A DNA stretch of 64,000 bases from assembly GCA_003009755.1 (NCBI GenBank), contig PXUB01000037.1, positions 1 through 64,000 of the forward strand, read 5' to 3'. The stretch comes from Thermoplasmatales archaeon SW_10_69_26 (GTDB lineage: Archaea > Thermoplasmatota > SW-10-69-26). The position numbers and the translations under genes were made by a program. Shown piece after piece: positions 18,809-33,506 of this stretch. Within the stretch, counting starts at the first letter, position 1. Every line of letters begins with the position of its first letter. The notes under the pieces are model-generated. The model was given only the letters and a program-made list of their open reading frames with translations, had not been told where the DNA came from and ran no database searches.

Positions 18809-19254
18809 GCTCTCGGCCGCTGTCGAGGCAAGCAGGCGGAGGGATCCCGATCGAACAGCCGGGCGAACGCCTCCACCCACGCCTCGACCTCTTCTCTCAA
18901 GGCGTTCCTCGGCGAGCGTCTGCGGAACGGGCCGATCCGTGCTTTGAGCAGGCCAACCCAGGTCTCCACCCTGTTCCGAACGCCGCCCGACGTGACTTGC
19001 CAGTCCAGCTCGAGCAGGTCCAACGGCCAGGGATACCACACGCCGCGGTCGACGTGGATCGCCGGCCGGTTGTCGCACCGGGCTGGCACGTGCTTGAGGA
19101 AGCCCAGGGCGTCCACGCTGCTCCGGCCTTGGCTGACCGCGACGTGGACAAGTTGTTGCGTGTCGGGGCCGACGGCGGCCCACAGGAACAGCTCGGTCAG
19201 GTGGTCGCCGGCGTCCTTGTCGCCGTCCTCGGGCCACGCACCCGCTTGTTGCAA
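18809..19254 (-). pseudogene. IS6-like transposase remnant that has lost its stop codon
   Basis: About 148 codons resemble the C-terminal two thirds of IS6-family DDE transposases of halophilic archaea. Features are the LFLWAAVGPDTQQLV strand, the Asp in HVDRGVWYPWPLD and the Glu in RNRVETWVGLLK. The N-terminal part is missing; the fragment begins within 40 bases of the beta-helix gene's stop. At the natural end (DPSACLP) the stop TGA has become CGA, so the frame runs on in phase into accC. A second fragment near 32.1 kb keeps TGA at this point. No terminal repeats or target duplications could be made out. Confidence 0.75.
18815..18999. repeat. 185-bp repeat, copy 1 (IS6-like transposase 3' end)
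   Basis: This stretch matches 32012-32196 over 185 bases without gaps, differing by eye at about 11 positions. Both copies begin at GGCCGCTGTC and end at GTGACTTG, though copy 1 continues as transposase beyond its right end and copy 2 does not. The pair could recombine and delete or invert the 13 kb between them. Confidence 0.85.
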
Positions 19255-19292: not shown

Positions 19293-21470
19293 CTACGGGG
19301 ACAAGCCCTCCCCCGGGCCACCGGAGTCGTCGTCAGCGACGGTCGAGGTGCCGCCGGGCTTGGCCTGCAGCCAGGGGTCGAACCGGACGTTGCTCACGCC
19401 CTCGTCGCTGTCGTCCTCGGTGACCGCGTCGCCGCTGCCGTCGGCCAACGCCGCGGTGACCGGGTCCTCGAGCGGGTTCGAGGCGTCCAGGCTGGAGGGA
19501 CCGTCGCTGGCGCCCCAGTAGTTGTCGCGGGCGTCCAGGGTCCCGAACACGACCCGGCGGGCGTCGATGCCGTACCCGCCGTTGCCGGCGATCACGTTGT
19601 CGTGGACCTCGACCTCGTCGACCTCGGCGTCCTCGGTGAACAGCAGGCCGTGGTCGAGGTTGTCGCGCATCGTGTTGTTCGCGATCTCGATCGAATCGGA
19701 GCTCTCCCCGGTGGTCGCGTCGACGGCGGTACCGTTCCCGTTGCCGGTGAGGCGGTTGTCCTCGACGACCAGCCCGGGCGTGTCGCCATCGGCGACGAGG
19801 CCGAACCGGTTGCCGGTGACCGTGTTGTCCGCCACCCGGTCCCCCGAGCTTCCCAACGAGTTGAGGGCCCCGTGGGTGCCGGTGACGGTGTTGGCCTCGA
19901 TCGTCGACCCCTCCGCGACCACGGAGACGATCCCGTCCCGGCCGTCGACCACCGTATTGTCCCGGATGGCCACGTTGGCGGAGCGGAAGACGACGATGCC
20001 GTCGTGGTTGCCGCCGTCGTATCGCTCGGGGTGCGTCGTCACGTCGTTGCCCTCGACGGTGCCCTCGACGCTACTTACCCGGTCGCCGTCCAACCGGATG
20101 CCCTCGTCCCCGTGGTCCACCCGACTCTGGGTGACGGACACGGTGTCGACCCAAGAGGTGAACACGCCCAGCCGATCGGCATCGATGGTGGTGTCGGTCA
20201 CCGAGACGCGGTCGTTGGACGACCCGGACGGCCCGAACGCGATCACGCCGTGGGTGACCTCCACGAGACGCGCGTCCGTGACCTCCATCGATTGTCTCGT
20301 CGACGGGGTGGCGAAGATCCCTCTTCTGCCATCCGTGACGGTCACATCGCTCACCCTGACCTGCCCGACCTCGTCGATCTGGAGCCCGTCGCGCACGGTC
20401 TCGATCGTCACGTTCTCCACGCTGAGCGCCGTCCCGCCCTGGGCGTACACGCCTTGGCCGTTGTGGGACAGGTCGAGGTTCTGCACGGTGACGCCGATGC
20501 TGTTCACCAGGCCGACGTACCCGGGCGAGGGGTCCATCTGGTTCCCGTCGAGGGTGATCCCGCTGGCGCCGACGAGGTAGTGGATGGGTCGGCCGTCGAC
20601 GGTGTTCGAGGTGTCCACGTGGTGGATGCCTCTCGCCCAGAAGTTGTAGGTGTTCCCGGCCAGCGCGTTGTCCCGCATGGTGACCCGGTCGTCGAAGCGG
20701 AGGTCGACGCCGACGCGGTTGTCGAGGACCGTGTTGGCCTCGAGGAGGTCGGTTCCCGGGAACGGGTCCTCGGCGATGCCGAAGAAGCCGACGTCGTTGT
20801 CGGCGAGAGTGTTGTCCACGATGCGGGCCTCGACGCCGCCGGGGTGGCTGTGGGCGAGGATGCCCGCGTCCTGGTGGCCTTGGATCTCAAGGCCCTGGAT
20901 CGCGACCGCGCGGGCCTCGAGGGTGAACCCGTTGTCCCCGTTCAGGTCCTCGACGCCGTCGCCCCGGACGACGACGGGGGCCTCACCCACGCTGGGCACC
21001 AGGAGGGGGAGGTCGAGGCTGTGGGCGCTGGCGATCGTCACGCCCGGCGTGGTGACGGTGACGGTCTCGGTGTAGGTGCCCGGGCAGACGGCGATCGTGG
21101 TCCCGGGGTCGGCAAGCGTCTCGGCGACCTGGATCCCGGTCCAGTCGGCGGTGGGGCACTCCTCGCGGTCGTCGTCGACGAGCACGGGCTCGTCCACGAG
21201 GGGGACCGGCGAGCTTTCGGGGTTCGTGGACGTCGTCTCGGCGCCGTCGGGCTCGAGCACGTCGGCCGGCGGCCCCCCAGCGACCGCAGGGCGAACCGAG
21301 ACGATATCCTCGTACCCGTCCGTGGGGAGGTCCAGGCCCGGCGGGGCCGAGTCCGCCTCGGAGCCGGGGGCCGACCCGGCCGCGGCGGGGACGGTCACCA
21401 AGACGAGTGCTGCGGCGACCGCGAGCAGCATCCCTCCCGCAACGCGCGCCGCGACTGGGTTACGGGGCAT
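19293..21470 (-). CDS. Secreted right-handed parallel beta-helix protein (NosD/pectate-lyase-like repeats)
   Basis: 725 residues. The signal peptide (Ala/Val-rich, cleaved near AAAGSA) marks export. From about residue 110 the order is ECPTADWTGIQ and PGTTIAVCPGTYTETV, then more than 400 residues of regularly spaced N-x-V/I and xNT-type turns (for example RDNTVVDGRDGIVSV, VADNTVTGNRFGLVAD). This is the usual signature of PbH1 beta-helix repeats found in sugar-binding surface proteins and polysaccharide lyases. The C-terminus (NYWGASDGPSSLD) is a NosD-like end cap. Its start overlaps the end of the preceding repeat protein by 11 bases, so it is the last gene of the surface operon. Catalytic function is unproven. 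Confidence 0.8.
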   Translation of the reverse strand: MPRNPVAARVAGGMLLAVAAALVLVTVPAAAGSAPGSEADSAPPGLDLPTDGYEDIVSVRPAVAGGPPADVLEPDGAETTSTNPESSPVPLVDEPVLVDDDREECPTADWTGIQVAETLADPGTTIAVCPGTYTETVTVTTPGVTIASAHSLDLPLLVPSVGEAPVVVRGDGVEDLNGDNGFTLEARAVAIQGLEIQGHQDAGILAHSHPGGVEARIVDNTLADNDVGFFGIAEDPFPGTDLLEANTVLDNRVGVDLRFDDRVTMRDNALAGNTYNFWARGIHHVDTSNTVDGRPIHYLVGASGITLDGNQMDPSPGYVGLVNSIGVTVQNLDLSHNGQGVYAQGGTALSVENVTIETVRDGLQIDEVGQVRVSDVTVTDGRRGIFATPSTRQSMEVTDARLVEVTHGVIAFGPSGSSNDRVSVTDTTIDADRLGVFTSWVDTVSVTQSRVDHGDEGIRLDGDRVSSVEGTVEGNDVTTHPERYDGGNHDGIVVFRSANVAIRDNTVVDGRDGIVSVVAEGSTIEANTVTGTHGALNSLGSSGDRVADNTVTGNRFGLVADGDTPGLVVEDNRLTGNGNGTAVDATTGESSDSIEIANNTMRDNLDHGLLFTEDAEVDEVEVHDNVIAGNGGYGIDARRVVFGTLDARDNYWGASDGPSSLDASNPLEDPVTAALADGSGDAVTEDDSDEGVSNVRFDPWLQAKPGGTSTVADDDSGGPGEGLSP

Positions 21471-23166
21471 GGACGGTCACCTCGATTTGGCCCCGGTCCA
21501 CGGCGCCGATCTCGTCCTCGACCGTGAGCGTCACGTTGTAGCTGCCGGCCTGCTCGAAGGCGTGGACGGGGGCGCCCGCGGTGCTGGTGGCCCTGTCGTC
21601 GAAGTCCCAGGCGATGGCGGTGATCGGTTCGGGGCTCGAGGAGGCGTCCACGAACTCGACGGGCTCGCCGACGGTCACGTTCGTGGCGTTGGCGGTGGGC
21701 GCAGCGACGAGGGCGTGGGGGCGCGGCGCGAACTGGACGCCGACCTCCGAGAGGGGCGTGGGGGTGGTGCGGTAGGTGACGCCGCTGGTGGTGTTCGACG
21801 ACTGGGTTCCGATCGTGAACGTGGGGAGGTCGTAGGCCATCCAGGCGTCGGCCTCCTCGATCATGCACCTTGCCTTCCCGTCCTCGGTCAGGTGGAGCTG
21901 GACGGTGATGGAGCCCCCGTCTCCGGTCGGTACCTGTTGCCACTCGACGACGAAGGCCCGGTTGGGCTCCTCGCCGACCGTCGCATAGCGCACGTCCGCC
22001 GGATCCGGCATCGATTCCCTGGGAGCGTAGGTTTGCGCGCAGTTCACCTCGTGGTCGGGCCCCCCGTCGTTTTCGCGGATGAAGGCACCGCTGAGCATCT
22101 CCTGGTCCGTGCAGTTCCCGATGCACGTGAGCCCGAAGTCCAGCACCCGCACTTCGGAGTGGTCGTCCCCGTACCAGGTGAAGTTGAACGGGAGCTGGAG
22201 GGGGCCTGACGCGTCCGTGCTATAGACGAAGAAGTCCGTGGAGAGGTCCTCGAACGTGAGCGAGGTCCCGTCGCTGGTGTCGGCCCAGTCGAAGGGGATC
22301 TCGGTGCACGTGTACCCGCCCACGTCGGGCCCGGTGTCCTGGCATCGGGGGGCGCGCGCCGTGGCGTCGGCCGGTTCGCCCTCGCCGGCGTCGTTGACGG
22401 CGGTGACGTGGTACTCTCTCTGTTCAAGGTAGTCGAGGCCTCGTTCCATGTGGTGGCGCTGATCCTCGTCGAACGCGGTGACGAGGGTCTGGGTCCCGTC
22501 CGGGTTCACTTCGTAGAGGCGGTACGCGGTGACGGGGCCGGTGCCGGGGTCGGTGGGGGCGCCCCACTGGATCGTGACCTCTCGCGGCTGACCCGGCGGG
22601 GGCTCATCGGCCGGTGAATCGAACCGGTTGGCTCCCACCTTATCTTCGGAATCGGTGACCTCCGTGAGGTTCCACACCGGGCCCGGAGCCGTGGATGCAT
22701 CGGTACTGGGGACGTGGGGGAGGTCGATCTGGAAGCCGCCGGCTCCCTTCGGGATCCGGGAGGTGTCCGTTCCCCGGCTGCCGTCGTAGTCCGCGTACGT
22801 GTCGGTTCCGCCTTGGTCGAGCAGCAGGCCCGCCCCGGGTTTCTCGGTGCTGGCGACCGGGTGGGGACCGATGAACTCGCAACCGGCCACCGGGTACAGG
22901 CACACCCGGTCGAAGACGAGGGTCGTCTTCCGGGGTGACCAGCTGGCTCCGTTGGCGCCCTGCGTGGTGGCCTGGTAGGTGTCGTCGCCGGCGTCGTCGC
23001 GCAGGAACCCGGTGCCCGACTGGGCCGCGCCGCCGTTGGTGGCGACGTTCTTGGCCTCGTAGGTATCGTCGCCGGCCCGGTCGTAGAGGAACCCGTTGCC
23101 TCCCCTGTAGCCGCCGCCGTTGCCCGCCTTGTCGGCGGTGTAGCGGGTTGCTCGTCCGTTCTGAAG
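21460..23166 (-). CDS. C-terminal part of the giant subtilase, out of frame with its first part (repeats, FN3 and PKD domains)
   Basis: This frame continues the upstream protein after a one-base shift. The first in-frame start codon is a GTG at 22905, but coding character reaches back to about 23166. It encodes three more DxxGDDTY repeats (near 23060, 22980 and 22800). An FN3-like domain follows ([26 protein letters not shown]), then a strand-rich Cys-containing domain with FNFTWYGDDHSEVRV. The end is a PKD domain (AIAWDFDDRATSTAG, then HAFEQAGSYNVTLTVED). Adding one C to the CCCC run at 23166-23169 (minus-strand sense) restores a single protein of about 1,870 residues. It may be a sequencing error or a real mutation. 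Confidence 0.75.
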   Translation of the reverse strand, partial: LQNGRATRYTADKAGNGGGYRGGNGFLYDRAGDDTYEAKNVATNGGAAQSGTGFLRDDAGDDTYQATTQGANGASWSPRKTTLVFDRVCLYPVAGCEFIGPHPVASTEKPGAGLLLDQGGTDTYADYDGSRGTDTSRIPKGAGGFQIDLPHVPSTDASTAPGPVWNLTEVTDSEDKVGANRFDSPADEPPPGQPREVTIQWGAPTDPGTGPVTAYRLYEVNPDGTQTLVTAFDEDQRHHMERGLDYLEQREYHVTAVNDAGEGEPADATARAPRCQDTGPDVGGYTCTEIPFDWADTSDGTSLTFEDLSTDFFVYSTDASGPLQLPFNFTWYGDDHSEVRVLDFGLTCIGNCTDQEMLSGAFIRENDGGPDHEVNCAQTYAPRESMPDPADVRYATVGEEPNRAFVVEWQQVPTGDGGSITVQLHLTEDGKARCMIEEADAWMAYDLPTFTIGTQSSNTTSGVTYRTTPTPLSEVGVQFAPRPHALVAAPTANATNVTVGEPVEFVDASSSPEPITAIAWDFDDRATSTAGAPVHAFEQAGSYNVTLTVEDEIGAVDRGQIEVTVHAP

Positions 23167-26100
23167 GGGACGAAGGTTAGCGGACTGGACCCGGCGCTTC
23201 CCCCGTTCACCGCTATGTCGTCCGGCCTCTCGAAGCTACTCGCGGCGTGGTAACCGTCGTCGCCGGCCCCGTCGACTAGGAAACCCAAGGCGCGTCCGTA
23301 GCCGCCCCCGTTGGACCACGAGCTCCCCTCGTACGTGTCGTTGCCGGCCACGTCGACGAGGCTTCCGATGGCTCTCCCGAACGCTCCGGCGCCGTTGCTG
23401 AGTCCACCCCCGACGTAGCGGTCGTTGCCGCCTCCATCGAAGAGGAACCCGGAGTCGCCCTGGGAGCCTCCGTTGGTCGTTTGCCCGGTGGGGGCGAAGA
23501 GGCAGTTCCGCCCGGTGATGTACGCGTCGTCCCCGCCGGCGTCCGCGAGGTAGCCCTGCCCGTAGATCGCGGCACCGTTCACCCCGTACTTGCAGGTTGT
23601 GTAGGTCTCGTCGGCGTCACCGCCGTCGTAGAGGAACCCGAACCCTCCGAAAAAGGCCCCCCCGTTGGTGGCGTAGATCGGGGCGTGGTAGGTGTCCTGG
23701 CCCACCCGGTCAACCAGGAACCCCGCGGGTGTGGTATCGGTGGATTCGAGGACGCCGCCGTTGGCGCCCTCTCCCCGCTGGGCCTCGTAGCGGTCGTCGC
23801 CGCCGGTGTCCACCAGGAGGCCGCTTCCCTCGAGGACTACGGCCCCGTTCACGCCTTGGAGGGGGGCCGTGTAGGTGTCGTCGGCTTCGCCGTCGTCGAC
23901 GAGAGCGCCTACGCCTAAGGCGCCGCCGCCGTTCACGCCATAGAGGCCACCGGTGTAGCGATCCTCGCCCTCGGTGTCGACCAGCAGGCCGATCCCGTGG
24001 ACCCAGCGGGGTTGGACGCCCAGCTGGCCCATCACGTTTGCGCCGCCGTTGACGCCGCGCGATCCTCCGTCGTAGGCGTCGCCGCCGTCGTGGTCGACGA
24101 GCGTGCCCAGGCCGCTGGCGCCGCCGCCGTTGACGCCCTTGCCCCGGACCTGGTATGTGTCCGATCCGTCGCCGTCGACGAGCAGGCCCGCGCCTAGCGC
24201 GTGGCCGCCGCCGTTGGTGCCGAAGTCGCCGGCCTGGTAAGCGTCCTGGCCGTCGGCGTCGACGAGCAGGCCGGTGCCGCCCAGCGAGGCGCCGCCGTTG
24301 ACGCCCAGCGAGTTCAACAGCTTGAAGCAGCCCTGGTAGCCCTGGTAGTCGGGACGGTCGCCGGCGAGGGTGGCCTCGAGCGTGGCGTGGGTGTCGACGA
24401 TCCCGTAGCCGAGGTCGGCGTTGCAGCCGTCCTCGGGGGGCGCGGGTTGGGCGTTGTCCCGGAGCAGTTGGCGGAGTTGCTTGTTCGTGAGGTCGTCGGC
24501 CTGGCTCCAGGCCAGCGCGGCGGTGGCGCTGACGTGGGGGGCGGCCATGCTGGTACCGTTGAGGACCCTGTACCCCGAGTCATCGCAGTAGTAAGGACCC
24601 TCACCGCGGTAAGGGCCAAGGAAGGGAGGCTCGTCTTCGACGCAGGCAGGGAGGGTGCTGAGCACGGCATCGCCAGGCGCGGCCAACTCGGCGTTGGGTC
24701 CATAACTGGAGTACCCGCACCGGGTCGCGTTCTCGTTGGTGCACGTGACCGCGATCACCTCGTCGTAGGCGGCCGGGTACCTCACGCAGTCGTAGCACCC
24801 ACTGTTGCCGGCGGCCGCGACCAGCAGGGCCCCCTCCTCCCAGACGTCGTGGACGGCCTGACGGATGGCGCTGTGGTCCAGGGTGGTGGTGATGCTCATG
24901 CTGATGACGTCCCCGCCGTTTTCGACACACCAGTGGAGCCCTTGGACCACGTCGCTGACGAAGCCGCGACCGTCCTCGTTGAGGACCTTGGCGGCCATCA
25001 GGCCGGTGTGGGCGGTGCCGGCGACGCCTGTCTCGTTGTCGATGGTGGCGGTGGCGATGCCGGTGACGTGCGTCCCGTGGCCGTAGTCGTCCATCGGGTC
25101 CTCGTCGTCGTTGTGGAAGTCGTGGCCGGCCAGCAGGCGGTCTTCGGCGATGTCCTCGTGCGTGTAGTCGACGCCCGAGTCCAGGATGCACACGGATTCG
25201 GAGGTGTCGCCGTTGGTGGTCTCCCAGGCGTCGGGTGCGTTGACCTGCTGGGGAGCATATTGGTCGTCGTAGAGCGGGTCGTTGGGGGTGGAGGCGGCGT
25301 GGACTTTCGCGTCGGGTTCCACGTAGCGGACGTTGGCGTCCTGTCGAGCCTCGGCCGGGAAGGTGACCGGATCCTCGGCTTCGACGACGAGGATCTCCTG
25401 CTCGGGCAGGGTGTCGAGGACGGTGGCGTTCTCGTAGGTGTCGCCCACCGACAATCCGGGGTTGTCTTGGTAGCCGACGAGGTAGCGGTCGGTCATGGCC
25501 TCGTTGCTGGCGGCCATGCCGGTGGGGTTCTGCCGGGCGGTCTCCTCGATGCTCTCCGGGACGTGGCCGGCCGCGGTGTCGGGTTGGTAGGTGTCGTCCC
25601 CGTGGGCGTCGATCAACAGGCCGCTGCCGGCGTAGCCGCCGCCGGTGGCGCCGCAACCGGCGGTGCTGACGTAGGTGTCGTCGCCGCTCACGTCCACGAG
25701 GGCGGCGGCGGTGCCGGTCTCGTTGAGGTCGCACTCAGGGGCCTCTTGGAGGTTGGAGCCGCCGGCGTTGTTCTCGTAGGTGTCGTCGCCGCCGGCGTCG
25801 ACGACGAGCGCGTAGTCCTCGGTGTACGTGTCGTCACTCTCGCCTAGGTCGATCGCCAGCGCCGGCTGGATGTCCACGGGCGCGGTGGTCGTCACCGGCG
25901 TGGTTTCGGCGAGGGCCTGGTGGAGGTCGAGGGCGGTGTCGAGGACATCCTGGCGGGCGCCGAACACCTCGGCCAGGTCTAGGTTGGCGTCCGCGTGGGC
26001 GTCCGAGAGGGACTGGCGAGGGGTTTCCTCGAGCTTGGCGGGGTCGACGGGGAGCCTTGGGATCGCTTGGTCGGTCTCCCAAGGGTCCTCGTCCCCCATG

Positions 26101-27071
26101 GTGAGGTCCCCGAACTTGTCGTCGTACTGTGCGGGCGTCATGGGAGCCATGCCCAGCCCGGCGGGGCCGTCGGTGTCGGCCGCGCGGGGGTGCAGTTGGG
26201 CCAGGTGGTCGGTGTCGGCGTCGGCGTAGGCGTCCTGTGTGGCGGTCTCGAAGGCGAGGAAGGCGTCGAGGTAGTCGGTGAGGGCCTCCCGCAGCGTCGG
26301 GGGGAGGTCGTCGAGGTGATCGAGGCTCTGGCGTTGGTCGAGGGTCGGCGTGGCGTCGTGGCGGTGGACGAGCTCGCGGGCGGCCTGGCTGGGCGAGGCG
26401 TGGTCCGGCGGGGTCACGTCGACCGGCTCGATGCCGAGCGTGTCGGCCTGGTGGCGTGTGGACTGTTGGGCGGATCGGATCGACCGCTCGACCTCGCTTG
26501 TGGTCTCGTCGTCGGCGGTGGCCAGCAGGTCCTCGGCGACGTCGAGGTGGGCCTGCTGTTGGGCGAGATGGGAGGTGTCGGTGTCGATGCGGTCCCGGCG
26601 GTCCTGCACCGCCGTGTGGGCGGTCGCGAGGGCTTGGTCGCGGTTGGTGAGGCTGGAGTCGTCCTCGATCGCCGTGAGGGCCCGGGTGAGGTCGACGTTG
26701 GCCAGCTGGGCATCGAGGACCTCGCCCAGGCCCGGGTCCAGGGGCCCGTTGTGAGCGAGGGCTTGGCGTTGCTCGAACGCGGTGGCTGCCGCTGTGAGGG
26801 TCTTCTCGGTCGGGGCCGCGGTGGGATCCTCGACGGTAGCGTCGAGGCGGTCGGCCAGATCCATGCTGGCCTGCTGGGCGTCGGGCAGGTCCACGGGAAC
26901 CTCCGCCGCATCCGATCTGGCTGTGGGGTCGATGGTTTCCGTCTCCGTGGGGGCCTCGTCGGTTCCGGGGGTGAAGACCCCGGCGCCGAGCCCGCTGATG
27001 GCGGGGGAGAGGGTGACGACGAGGGCCAGGGCGAGGACGGTGAGCGTGGAGTGGGTTGGGTTCGTGGTCAT
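22506..27071 (-). CDS. Secreted subtilisin-like protease inserted in NGG/GDDTY repeats (N-terminal part)
   Basis: The open frame codes 1,521 residues, but those after about 1,302 read in the wrong phase. Residues 1-30 are a signal peptide. Residues 60-400 are an Ala/Asp/His-rich helical region shared with the neighbouring paralogue. Residues 405-495 hold repeats, and about 530-905 hold a complete peptidase S8: D631 in LDSGVD, H665 in YGHGTHV, oxyanion N756 in AAAGNSG and S841 in NGTSMAAPH. Residues 915-1300 hold twelve more repeats of roughly 24-40 residues (G.NGGA..G.G.LVD..G.DTY). The peptidase therefore sits inside the repeat array. It is second of three genes in the surface operon, overlapping the first by four bases. 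Confidence 0.88.
23170..24330 (-). repeat. Array of NGG...LVDxxGxDTY protein repeats after the peptidase
   Basis: Twelve repeats are countable before the frameshift and three more after it (down to about 22790). Each has a G(V/T)NGGA turn, a short G.G.LVD strand and a D-x-x-G-x-D-x-Y end. Spacing is irregular where loops are inserted, including one with a Cys pair near 23500. The Asp/Gly turns recall calcium-binding RTX repeats but the unit and Tyr are different. Confidence 0.75.
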
Positions 27072-28498
27072 GGGGACGTGCCTCCTGGGGTGGGTCGGTC
27101 GTGGTCGAGTTGGGCGCCGACGAGGCCCTTGGGGACGACCGTTTTGTCGGTGCCGGTGCCGCCCTCGAAGTCCTCGTAGGTGTCGGTGCCGTTCCCGTCG
27201 TACAACAGGCCCACACCGACGGGGACGTATTGATCAGTGACGAGAGAGTCGTAGTTGCCGTCGGTGGCGTGGCCGTTGACGGCGGTGACGGTGGCCTCGT
27301 AGCGGTCGTTGCCGTCGAGGTCGACGAGCAGGCCGGCGCCGGCCAGCCCGCCGCCGTTGGTTCCGTCCGATCCTGCGGTGTAGGTGTCGTGGCCGTCGGC
27401 GTCGAGCAGGGCGCCCGACCCGCCAAAGGCCACGCCGCCATTGGTCCCGGCTCCGTCGGCGAGGTAGGTGTCGTCTCCGTCGGCGTCGAGGAGGAACCCG
27501 TGGCCGCCGAAGTTGGCTCCCCCGTTCACGCCGCTGGCGGTGCCGACGTAGGTGTCGTTGCCCCCTTCGTCGAGGAGGGCCCCGACCCCGGAGTGCACGG
27601 CGCCCCCGTTCACGCCGCCCCTCCGTTTACCCGTGGGATCGTCGAAGATGGCGGGATCGCCGTACTCGTCGTCGCCGTCGCCGAGGTCGACGAGCGCGGC
27701 GGGGTTGAGCCGGTAGACTCCAGGAATGGCCACCAGGTTGCTGGTTCCACCGGCGTTGTTGTGGTAGGTGTCCTCGCCCCCGACGTCGATGGAGAGTCGG
27801 ACGTCTTCCGTGTACGTGGCATCGCAGCCCTCCACGTCGAGCGCCAGCACGCCGACGGAACCGACGATCGGATTGTCGGGCGTCTCGATGACGAGGGGCT
27901 CGCACGCGCTGGCGGTATCCGCCGGCATCCCGGGAGTGGTTTGGACGGCTCTGTGGAGGTCCTGGACCTCGTCGAGCAGACCGTTTCGGGCGGCGAAGAC
28001 GCTCCCTGGGTCGCTGTCGGTGGAGGCCGCGCCGAGGACGAGGAACGCGTCGATCACGTCGGTGAGCTCGGTGCGGAAGGGCTCATCAAGGGTGTCCAGC
28101 TCGCGGACCTGGTCCAGGTCGTCGTCTGCAAGCGTTGCGTCGTGCTGGTCCGCGAGCGCGAGCACGGCGGCGCTCGGCGAATCATGCTCGATCGTCGGAA
28201 GGTCCACCGCGAGCCCATCGCCGAGCGTGGAGGCCTGGTGCTCGCCGACGAGCTTGCCCAGCTCGATCGCCTCGGCGAAGGAGACGTCCTCGCCGGCCTC
28301 GTCCTGGAAGTGCTGGATCGCGGTCGGGAGCCCGTCGTAGGCCTCGACGGACGCGTCGGCGGCCGGGGCGCCCGAGCCCGACGACGATGGGCTCGGGGAG
28401 ACGGCGGCGGTGGCCGGGACGGTGACGAGGGCGATCGCGGCGGCGAGCACGGCAAGGCGGCGGGGCGACTCGATGAGCAAGCCTGCGGCCTCCGTCAC
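27068..28498 (-). CDS. Secreted repeat protein, paralogue of the subtilase without the peptidase
   Basis: 476 residues from a GTG at 28498. A signal peptide (LAVLAAAIALVTVPATA) is followed by an Asp/Ala/Leu helical region (about 45-210) that matches the equivalent region of the downstream subtilase in layout (QHDATL, DLHRAVQTTP, NAGG). Then come seven repeats ending in DxxGxDTY, for example GGHGFLLDADGDDTY. No peptidase is present and the repeats run without interruption, so it shows what the subtilase looked like before the protease was inserted, or after its loss. First gene of the operon; the next start overlaps its stop. Location: cell surface or secreted. Confidence 0.85.
   Translation of the reverse strand: MTEAAGLLIESPRRLAVLAAAIALVTVPATAAVSPSPSSSGSGAPAADASVEAYDGLPTAIQHFQDEAGEDVSFAEAIELGKLVGEHQASTLGDGLAVDLPTIEHDSPSAAVLALADQHDATLADDDLDQVRELDTLDEPFRTELTDVIDAFLVLGAASTDSDPGSVFAARNGLLDEVQDLHRAVQTTPGMPADTASACEPLVIETPDNPIVGSVGVLALDVEGCDATYTEDVRLSIDVGGEDTYHNNAGGTSNLVAIPGVYRLNPAALVDLGDGDDEYGDPAIFDDPTGKRRGGVNGGAVHSGVGALLDEGGNDTYVGTASGVNGGANFGGHGFLLDADGDDTYLADGAGTNGGVAFGGSGALLDADGHDTYTAGSDGTNGGGLAGAGLLVDLDGNDRYEATVTAVNGHATDGNYDSLVTDQYVPVGVGLLYDGNGTDTYEDFEGGTGTDKTVVPKGLVGAQLDHDRPTPGGTSP
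27190..27800 (-). repeat. Array of seven NGG...DxxGxDTY repeats in the paralogue
   Basis: Seven units of about 24-35 residues, with the same G.NGG turn and DxxGxDxY end as in the subtilase. At the DNA level the units are degenerate, so the array is old and kept by selection on the protein rather than a recent tandem expansion. Confidence 0.75.
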
Positions 28499-28538
28499 AG
28501 GGAGCGGGCCAGTGCACGGTTAAGCGTTGCTTGACAAA
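28405..28538. repeat. 134-bp direct repeat, copy 1 (promoter and signal peptide of the surface operon)
   Basis: This block is nearly identical (two differences seen) to 29684-29817 in the same orientation. It spans the promoter, GTG start and the first 31 codons of the repeat-protein gene. Between the two copies sits only the toxin-antitoxin pair and short flanks. Confidence 0.92.
28518..28525 (-). promoter_or_regulatory. TATA box of the surface-protein operon
   Basis: Minus-strand GCTTAACC lies about 24 nt before the GTG at 28498, matching the leaderless spacing seen elsewhere. The same box is duplicated at 29797-29804 in front of the truncated copy. Confidence 0.5.
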
Positions 28539-29642: not shown

Positions 29643-29777
29643 TCAGCTCCGGGGAGATCGCTCGTCCTCCGCGGGGAGGAGGTCGGCGGTGGCCGGGACG
29701 GTGACGAGGGCGATCGCGGCGGCGAGCACGGCAAGGCGGCGGGGCGACTCGATGAGCAAGCCTGCGGCCTCCGTCAC
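29643..29777 (-). pseudogene. Truncated N-terminus of the repeat-protein gene
   Basis: A GTG at 29777 opens 44 codons. The first 31 equal the signal peptide of the repeat protein at 28498 (TEAAGLLIESPRRL and onward). The sequence then turns into an unrelated short tail ending in TGA. It retains the promoter of the intact gene. It is a duplication scar, perhaps left when the toxin-antitoxin pair arrived; a short secreted peptide could still be made. Confidence 0.8.
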
Positions 29778-29817
29778 CGGGAGCGGGCCCGTGCACGGTT
29801 AAGCGTTGCTTGACAAA
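29684..29817. repeat. 134-bp direct repeat, copy 2
   Basis: This matches 28405-28538 with two differences. Directly after it a 13-base unit GTTGCTTGACAAA occurs twice in tandem (29805-29830), where copy 1 has it once. Both outer edges are abrupt. Confidence 0.92.
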
Positions 29818-31680: not shown

Positions 31681-32010
31681 ACCCAAGACGAGTTGGTCTG
31701 GCTCAAGGAACCCAAGTTCCACGACGAGCGGGACCGCCTGCTCCGCCAACGCGTCCTCCACATCGACGCCCTCGAGGAACGCAAAGCCATCCTCGAGCCC
31801 CTCCTCGCGGGGTTGGCGTTAGAGGACGAGCCGGCGCACTGGTTGATGAGCATCCCCGGGTGCCGGTGGTACCTGGCGATGTACATCCTCAGCGAGGTCG
31901 GCACCATCAATCGGTTCGACAGCGTGGACGCGTTCAAGAAGTACAGCGCGTGCTGTCCCCGCAAGCAACCCACGGGCGGCCGGCAGGACCCGTACGGGGT
32001 GGTCCAGCAT
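31681..32010 (+). pseudogene. IS110-family transposase fragment
   Basis: About 110 codons match the C-terminal (transposase_20) region of IS110/IS116/IS902 transposases. They include LMSIPGCRWYLAMYILSEVG, the NRFDSVDAFKKYSA segment and CPRKQPTGGR. The N-terminal DEDD catalytic half is missing, and the 3' end is cut by the IS6-like remnant at 32012. It is dead as a transposase. Confidence 0.8.
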
Positions 32011-32011
32011 G

Positions 32012-32196
32012 GGCCGCTGTCAAGGCAAGCAGGCGGACGGATCCTGATTGAACAACCAGGCGAACGCCTGAGCCCACGCCTCGACCTCTTCTCTCAAGGC
32101 GTTCCTCGACGAGCGTCTGCGGAACGGGCCGATCCGTGCTTTGAGCAGGCCAACCCAGGTTTCCACCCTGTTCCGAACGCCGCCCGACGTGACTTG
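32012..32196 (-). pseudogene. IS6-like transposase 3' remnant, copy 2
   Basis: 185 bases matching 18815-18999. Read on the minus strand it encodes about 58 C-terminal residues (VTSGGVRNRVETWVGLLKAR and on, ending in CLP) and keeps the natural TGA stop at 32020-32022. It abuts the IS110 fragment, so one element jumped or recombined into the other. The remaining transposase is missing. Confidence 0.8.
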
Positions 32197-32594
32197 GCCG
32201 TTTCGCGGTCGAGGACGGGGCCGACCCGCCCCAGCGGGCCTTCTGCGAGGAGGACGGCCACGCCGAGCACCAGGCCCCGACCCGAGCGGCGACCGCGTAG
32301 CCCTGATCGCTCCCGCGTCCCCCGCCTCCAGCGAGCGGCGTTTCACCGACCGAGCCACACCGTTTCCCGATCGGCCCAATCGGCTCAAGTGTCCCCCAGC
32401 CGAGTCCCGGTCGAGGTGACCGAGGACATGAGGACACGACCGATCGAGGACCACGCCGCTCTCGCCCGCCCTGGGTCAGTGGGGCGAGGCCCCGAGGAAC
32501 CAGAGCAGGGCGGTCTTCGCGATGGAGACACCGTCTCGCATCCGGGTCCGCCGTCTGTTTTCGTCTTTCCCGACTTCCACGGTTGCGGTCATCC
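32197..32594. other. Non-coding stretch between transposase debris and an ABC operon
   Basis: About 400 bases. On the minus strand a short segment around 32215-32290 reads like a decayed membrane helix (LVLGVAVLLAEGPLGRVG), perhaps the rest of a broken gene. No complete gene, RNA or clear TATA box is seen. A TTTTCGTCTTTCC tract just before 32595 may serve as promoter or terminator. Confidence 0.35.
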
Positions 32595-33506
32595 ATGATC
32601 ACGTGCCAGGAGATCACGAAGAGCTACGGGGAACACGTCGTCCTCGCGTCCGTCAACCTCGATGTGCGGCGGGGCGAGACCTACGGTCTGCTCGGCCCCA
32701 ACGGGGCGGGGAAGACCACGACGTTCAAGCTCGTCCTCGGCCTCGAGGATCTCGACAGCGGTCGGGTCCTGGTGGGGAACAGGGACGTCGACAAGGACCG
32801 GGCGAGGTTCCTGGCCGACGTCGGCTACGTTCCCGAGGTCGTACCCGTCGAACCCCGCAAGACGGCCCGACAGAACCTGCGAGACGTCGGCCGATTGTAC
32901 GATGTCGCCTCCCAGGAACTCGAGGACCGCATCCCGGAACTGCTGTCGTTCGTTGGCCTATCGGGGACAGGGGGCGATCGCGTCACCACGTTCTCGAAGG
33001 GGATGCGCCAGCGACTGGGGATCGCGCGGAGCCTGCTCCACCGTCCCGACCTGTTGCTGTTGGACGAACCGTTCAGCGGGCTCGACCCCGAGGCCCAACG
33101 AGAGCTTAGACGTCTCGTCGAAACGCTGGCCTCGGAGGGACTGGCCTTGCTGATCGCGACCCATCGCCTGGCGGAGGCCTCCGAGATGTGTGACCGGGTC
33201 GGGATCCTCCACGAGGGACGCCTCCGTCAAGAGGTCCCGCTCGATGACCGGTCCCGGGAGAGCATCCACGCCAACTTCCTTGCCCCCGTCGGCGAGGAGG
33301 TCCTGGCGGCCGTGAACGATCTCGACGGCGTGGGCGCTGTCGAGCGGGGGAACGGGTGGGCTCGGATCCTCGCCGACGACGATTTGGGCGTCTCCCAGGT
33401 CCGAAGCATCCTCCAGGGGAAGGCCCGTCTCACCCGATACCGGAGCCCGAAACGGGAGCTCGAAGGTCTCTACGACCGCGTCACCAGCGAGGGGTCGAAG
33501 GCATGA
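32595..33506 (+). CDS. ABC transporter ATP-binding protein (ABC-2 export type)
   Basis: 303 residues. Walker A GPNGAGKTTT (about 36-45), Q-loop region, signature FSKGMRQR, Walker B LLLLDEPFSGLDP and switch His in ATHRL are intact. The C-terminal 90 residues are an extension typical of ATPases that pair with ABC-2 permeases. Start ATG at 32595; a TTG four codons upstream is less likely. Its stop overlaps the permease start (ATGA). With the next two genes it forms an exporter with a secreted partner. Cargo unknown. Confidence 0.9.
   Translation: MITCQEITKSYGEHVVLASVNLDVRRGETYGLLGPNGAGKTTTFKLVLGLEDLDSGRVLVGNRDVDKDRARFLADVGYVPEVVPVEPRKTARQNLRDVGRLYDVASQELEDRIPELLSFVGLSGTGGDRVTTFSKGMRQRLGIARSLLHRPDLLLLDEPFSGLDPEAQRELRRLVETLASEGLALLIATHRLAEASEMCDRVGILHEGRLRQEVPLDDRSRESIHANFLAPVGEEVLAAVNDLDGVGAVERGNGWARILADDDLGVSQVRSILQGKARLTRYRSPKRELEGLYDRVTSEGSKA

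Follow-up and report, generated by a model that had tools for sequence, protein, structure and literature searches.

How a complete serine protease comes to lie within an array of glycine-rich repeats, and what such a layout would mean for the enzyme, is the question raised by ORF 22506-27071, which is on the minus strand of the window (the whole 64,000-nucleotide stretch of DNA that we analyzed) and encodes 1,521 residues. An earlier note on this DNA proposed that a subtilase had been inserted into a scaffold of surface repeats, yielding a tethered surface enzyme or a self-processing shell protein. We found that the nested pro-subtilase is genuine, has clear borders, and was seen once; of its two components, one is ordinary and the other has no name. 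The protein is a member of the lineage's helix plus NGG/DxY family, whose members consist of a helical region, an N-cap (D.GGDDTYxNNAGG), repeat units, and a C-cap (PKG..G.Q.D). The features of the locus, in the direction of transcription, are as follows.

27068..28498, minus strand: upstream paralogue, with a helical domain and an uninterrupted repeat solenoid, no peptidase
26982..27071, minus strand: start codon, then a probable signal peptide over residues 1-30 (19-residue hydrophobic stretch, sequence-based)
25890..26984, minus strand: helical N-terminal domain, about residues 30-394, common to paralogues (profile)
25557..25889, minus strand: N-cap (segment of 14 residues) and three pre-insert units, residues 395-505
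25296..25511, minus strand: subtilase propeptide of the aqualysin I/fervidolysin type, residues 521-592 (8c4z profile match)
24357..25295, minus strand: peptidase S8 catalytic domain, residues 593-905 (Pfam PF00082 and thermitase superposition)
23193..24305, minus strand: post-insert repeat units, about eleven, residues 923-1293 (unit HMM)
23145..23200, minus strand: frame break joining two ORFs (GC3 by frame, unit matches)
22715..23144, minus strand: further repeats and C-cap (segment of 15 residues), in the frame of ORF 21460-22905
22366..22590, minus strand: fibronectin type III-like region (Pfam score 22.1 versus a cut-off of 25, thus below it)
21472..21705, minus strand: PKD domain (Pfam PF18911, E=1.3e-15)
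19293..21470, minus strand: downstream overlapping gene, encoding a NosD-like right-handed beta-helix protein

The inserted part is a whole pro-subtilase of about 390 residues, consisting of a propeptide (about residues 521-592) and an S8 domain (593-905). Pfam detected only one family in ORF 22506-27071, Peptidase_S8 (PF00082; residues 625-890, E=1.5e-46). The D-H-N-S catalytic set is complete and lies in S8 motifs, with D631, H665, N756, and S841 located exactly where they had been placed earlier. Superposition of the S8 domain on thermitase (1thm) gave Z=47.0 and an rmsd of 1.2 over 277 residues, i.e., a subtilisin fold. The earlier description of a full peptidase was correct as far as S8 is concerned; it overlooked the propeptide. 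The stretch ahead of S8, which begins with a segment of 12 residues and ends with one of 13, aligns with propeptides of free-standing secreted subtilases; a profile of this region and its homologues matches 8c4z (E=1.9e-5), titled Extracellular serine proteinase, which we take to be the aqualysin I prodomain, and matches subtilisin prosegments weakly. A Fervidolysin_NPro-like Pfam match was found in 7 of 13 propeptide members, although the window member reached only 0.022, below the cut-off. At residue 595 lies a TPNDP motif, the motif at which the mature chain of thermitase begins. By analogy with these relatives, the insert is predicted to be proteolytically active and to process itself.

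The borders of the insert are set by free-standing relatives. Two of these, one from another genome (G014 C49) and one from the same genome (C30), are each 46% identical to the insert and match from the start of the propeptide to the end of S8, and no further. In a 561-residue probe, homology to free-standing subtilases ran from near positions 118-131 to near 495-518, which are the insert borders. A tree of subtilase domains had few supported forks; only the subtilase of a giant protein encoded elsewhere in the genome (L016, see below) was clearly distant.

For the repeats, we used a unit HMM trained on the window paralogue plus five proteins encoded elsewhere in the genome, six in all, and never on ORF 22506-27071 itself. 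Units were recognized before the protease at residues 424-433, 457-467, and 473-496 (best score, 28.0 bits) and after it from residue 923 to 1277 (up to 33.8 bits), whereas the best of 200 shuffles scored 9.0 bits; repeats are therefore present on both sides of the peptidase, as had been claimed. The consensus unit of ∼27 residues reads G-x-N-G-G-G-x-x-G-x-G-x-L-L/V-D-x-x-G-x-D-x-Y-x-A. Because training units were chosen by text pattern, its invariant letters are partly due to selection; the full-length alignment of the paralogues has identical invariant columns. Searches of Pfam, NCBIfam, and PHROGs, and of the PDB by sequence, found nothing matching the repeat. Its DxxGxDxY half-turn resembles the RTX turn GGxGxDxU (PMC6891781), but only that half of the unit resembles an RTX nonapeptide: the paralogue had no Pfam match, RTX models included, at E≤1, and tandem GGxGxDxUx nonapeptides were not recognized.

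An AlphaFold model of the paralogue, built from 17 sequences, shows a helical bundle followed by a beta-solenoid (pLDDT 77, pTM 0.82). With Foldseek alone, the repeat model had no match at E≤0.001. In VIA-align, the best neighbor was 3p4g (Z=11.2; 184 residues superposed at an rmsd of 3.2), then 7o9q (Z 9.1) and other solenoids, whereas RTX domains gave Z values of 4 to 6; scores of this size are in part what any solenoid would give. Since solenoids match each other easily, these neighbors indicate the kind of fold rather than kinship, and the repeat is best described as a modeled beta-solenoid resembling Ca-binding beta-helices. A 906-residue model of residues 395-1300 yielded a good propeptide and protease, with a pTM of 0.46 and repeats mostly at pLDDT <60. 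It was built from a protease-only alignment (A5), so the repeats are poorly modeled; alignments of subtilases and repeat proteins together (A3 and A4) were dropped because MAFFT placed repeats over the protease. The units on either side of the protease match one unit HMM, whereas the model around the protease is too weak to assign a fold.

Whether the protease truly interrupts one array is best judged from its flanks. When these were joined by script without the insert, they aligned contiguously to the intact arrays of L018, from a relative (47% over 253 columns, E=1e-69), of L094 (46%, E=1e-67), and of the window paralogue (44%, E=1e-46). The helical N-terminal domain is likewise that of the family (profile match, A1 positions 36-324, E=4e-64), the C-cap after the array is common to the paralogues, and N-cap and C-cap each occur once; because both caps are kept, the host repeat protein was whole. 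The insert lies in the loop between the DxY strand of one unit and the NGG turn of the next. This loop usually has 7 residues but has 19 to 29, with Cys pairs, in the three paralogues C3a/C32/C25 and 49 in L095. In the paralogues L012:1656-3722, L013, and L014, lengthened inter-unit loops carry Cys pairs unit after unit, which suggests a disulfide ladder along the solenoid. GC3 is 0.88 to 0.95 in every segment of the subtilase-repeat gene, and codon usage is uniform. The earlier proposal that the protease was inserted into a repeat scaffold is thus well supported by the contiguous flanks, by the coincidence of homology borders with insert borders, and by uniform codon usage, and one solenoid probably continues across the insert. 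It is unlikely that the N-cap with its three units forms one solenoid and the later array another, strung like beads on either side of an ordinary protease: the 906-residue model indeed shows no continuous solenoid, and three units plus a cap could fold by themselves, but the paralogues have a single array between one N-cap and one C-cap, the insert is not followed by a second N-cap, and the flanks without the insert make up one normal array. We also considered a recent foreign graft or a chimeric contig and rejected either as the main reading, given the uniform codon usage and an insert that is in frame on both sides.

The core of the earlier layout stood, but not the C-terminal ∼210 residues. 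From about residue 1300 to 1521, ORF 22506-27071 consists of Pro/Thr/Arg-rich text; we read it as out of frame because GC3 in this frame falls there, from ∼0.88 to ∼0.65 across 23220-23160, while GC3 in the frame of ORF 21460-22905 climbs to 0.88-0.97 past the break, with clean repeats (a 46-residue stretch) and the C-cap (a segment of 17 residues). Unit scores in that frame are 29.2, 33.1, and 20.1 (unit HMM). Judging from the two reading frames, the real product most likely runs to 21460 and has about 1,860 residues; the break at 23145-23200 may be an assembly error or a real mutation. The frame-corrected C terminus adds the FN3-like region (below the Pfam cut-off), a stretch without assignment, and the PKD domain. 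As the protein ends in these parts and we recognized no anchor in it, although an N-terminal hydrophobic stretch is present, the proposal of a tethered surface enzyme is conjectural. Nor did the Pfam scan find an autotransporter match; the C terminus is FN3-like and PKD.

With these parts in this order, caps shared with paralogues, an insert at a defined point within the repeat period, and all catalytic residues in place, our preferred reading (to which we assign a probability of roughly 60%) is that a pro-subtilase module was inserted in one inter-coil loop of an intact, probably secreted protein of the lineage-wide helix plus beta-solenoid family, where it would cleave itself, the enzyme staying on the solenoid. 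The chain would be exported, and the solenoid would fold with the help of Ca2+. If the protease behaves like its aqualysin and subtilisin relatives, it would fold on its propeptide and cut itself at about residues 592-595; two polypeptide pieces would result, held together where the coils bordering the insert stack. With the cut placed within a solenoid loop, the C-terminal part would retain the enzyme and the halves may remain stacked: active enzyme would be fixed to the solenoid via its C-terminal side, with the propeptide on the N-terminal half. Its likely job would be local extracellular proteolysis, either supplying peptides or trimming neighboring surface proteins. The self-processing suggested earlier is plausible since the insert carries its own propeptide, while the cleavage itself is predicted from relatives. 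A self-cutting protease would normally part from its N-terminal neighbor; nesting in a solenoid loop would offer a simple means of retaining the enzyme on its scaffold.

In a rival reading, the protease would serve to mature, in cis, its own protein or its operon partners, and would subsequently be silenced by bound propeptide and have no outside substrates. In the nested layout the propeptide does remain covalently on the scaffold half, and processing of an archaeal S-layer precursor has been suggested for the subtilase STABLE (PMC5744192); however, the close free-standing relatives, which carry PKD or similar domains, resemble general secreted proteases, and nothing points to a specific substrate, leaving this role doubtful. 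More speculative, and in our estimate rather improbable, is a solenoid-clamped zymogen: after the self-cut in the loop, with the halves held by coil stacking, the propeptide on the N-terminal half would serve as a latch opened by strain on the solenoid or by loss of Ca2+.

The ATG of the subtilase-repeat ORF overlaps the stop of the upstream paralogue (27068-28498), which, as noted earlier, shares the helical region and the repeats but lacks a peptidase; paralogue, subtilase, and NosD-like genes overlap start to stop (27068/27071 and 21460/21470) on the minus strand in an operon-like arrangement. A promoter and terminator scan found nothing above chance, although archaeal promoters are outside its coverage. 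The upstream region of the paralogue and its first ∼41 codons occur as direct copies (28394-28538 and 29672-29817, 96.6% identical) flanking two genes, one for a CopG-type RHH protein (Pfam RHH_1, 2.6e-9) and another small one, which had no Pfam match. Direct copies of 185 bp (18815-18999 and 32012-32196, 94% identical) bracket the whole surface-protein cluster, the latter beside an IS110-type transposase match (31693-32598). ORF 29938-31611 matches MoxR-type AAA_3 over no more than a short stretch, residues 351-383, and looks like a broken or fused ATPase.

The architecture rests on one metagenome-assembled genome (MAG) contig and a gene with a frame break, and we found no orthologue of the nested layout in the seven genomes of the class. 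A decaying gene or an artifact of misassembly, for which the frame break at 23145-23200, the nearby direct copies of 146 and 185 bp, and occurrence in one MAG could speak, is quite unlikely, as both frames are otherwise open and stop-free with GC3 of about 0.9, catalytic residues and repeat motifs are kept, and the insert is in frame at both borders.

The repeat itself is widespread, in Thermoplasmatota relatives and in many bacterial phyla. Among 389 genomes of the phylum, 11 matched the repeat family (three candidates per genome scored); within the class, the family is enlarged to numerous members, with open frames between 2,000 and 4,900 residues long. The N-cap pattern was found at 22 loci in named genomes, including Planctomycetota, Cloacimonadota, Calditrichaeota, Nitrospiraceae, Geobacteraceae, and archaeal MAGs; bacterial loci with the NNAGG cap are L035, L037, L038, L019, L020, L021, L022, and L036. 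In the three bacterial proteins scanned with Pfam, a PDZ domain precedes the repeats (L035) or HEAT repeats follow them (L021 and L036). Across all loci examined, protease motifs in repeat ORFs were confined to ORF 22506-27071 and the giant L016 (G000:C34:35000-47530), which has at least 4,176 residues and nine PKD matches and runs off the contig end. Its subtilase (about residues 880-1137) is very divergent and below Pfam detection, with an intact-looking D/H/N/S set, and lies about 1,260 residues ahead of a separate helix plus repeat region (about 2398-2552). Subtilase and repeat have thus probably been joined at least twice in the SW_10_69_26 genome, and nesting was seen once. In another genome of the class (L141, G032:C321), a repeat gene has, next to it and downstream on its own strand, an unfused gene for a 904-residue subtilase. 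Of more use than the nesting, perhaps, is the repeat itself, which is found in archaea and many bacterial phyla together with PDZ, HEAT, beta-helix, PKD, and subtilase domains and has no model in the curated libraries searched.

In the literature searched, outside which most subscription papers fall, we found no description of the nested subtilase or of the NGG/DxY repeat; the earlier statement that no such system has been described holds to that extent, although protease plus RTX, subtilase plus beta-helix, and S-layer-bound subtilases are known neighbors. The enzyme is akin to secreted subtilases of the thermitase and aqualysin type (MEROPS S8A) in catalytic set, fold, and propeptide, and shares 46% identity with free-standing ones in the class and its own genome; these directly follow a signal peptide, whereas the nested module lacks its own signal peptide and lies within a repeat array. 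RTX proteases (serralysins) likewise unite a secreted protease with Gly/Asp-rich parallel beta structure, but they are metalloproteases whose RTX block is C-terminal rather than surrounding and is built of nine-residue units instead of about 27. Region IV of the giant adhesin MpAFP of Marinomonas primoryensis (3p4g), a Ca2+-dependent beta-helix, resembles the repeat model but differs in unit length and sequence (20% identity over the aligned part) and has no enzyme inserted. The Ssp subtilase autotransporter of Serratia (8e7f) is likewise a single secreted chain in which a subtilase is joined to a beta-helical stem; there the stem follows the protease and leads into an outer-membrane barrel at its end. 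We recognized no such barrel in the subtilase-repeat protein. An archaeal precedent for a subtilisin-family protease fixed to a surface scaffold is STABLE, on the tetrabrachion of Staphylothermus marinus (PMC5744192); STABLE, however, is a protein in its own right that binds a coiled-coil stalk, whereas the nested subtilase is part of the scaffold chain itself.
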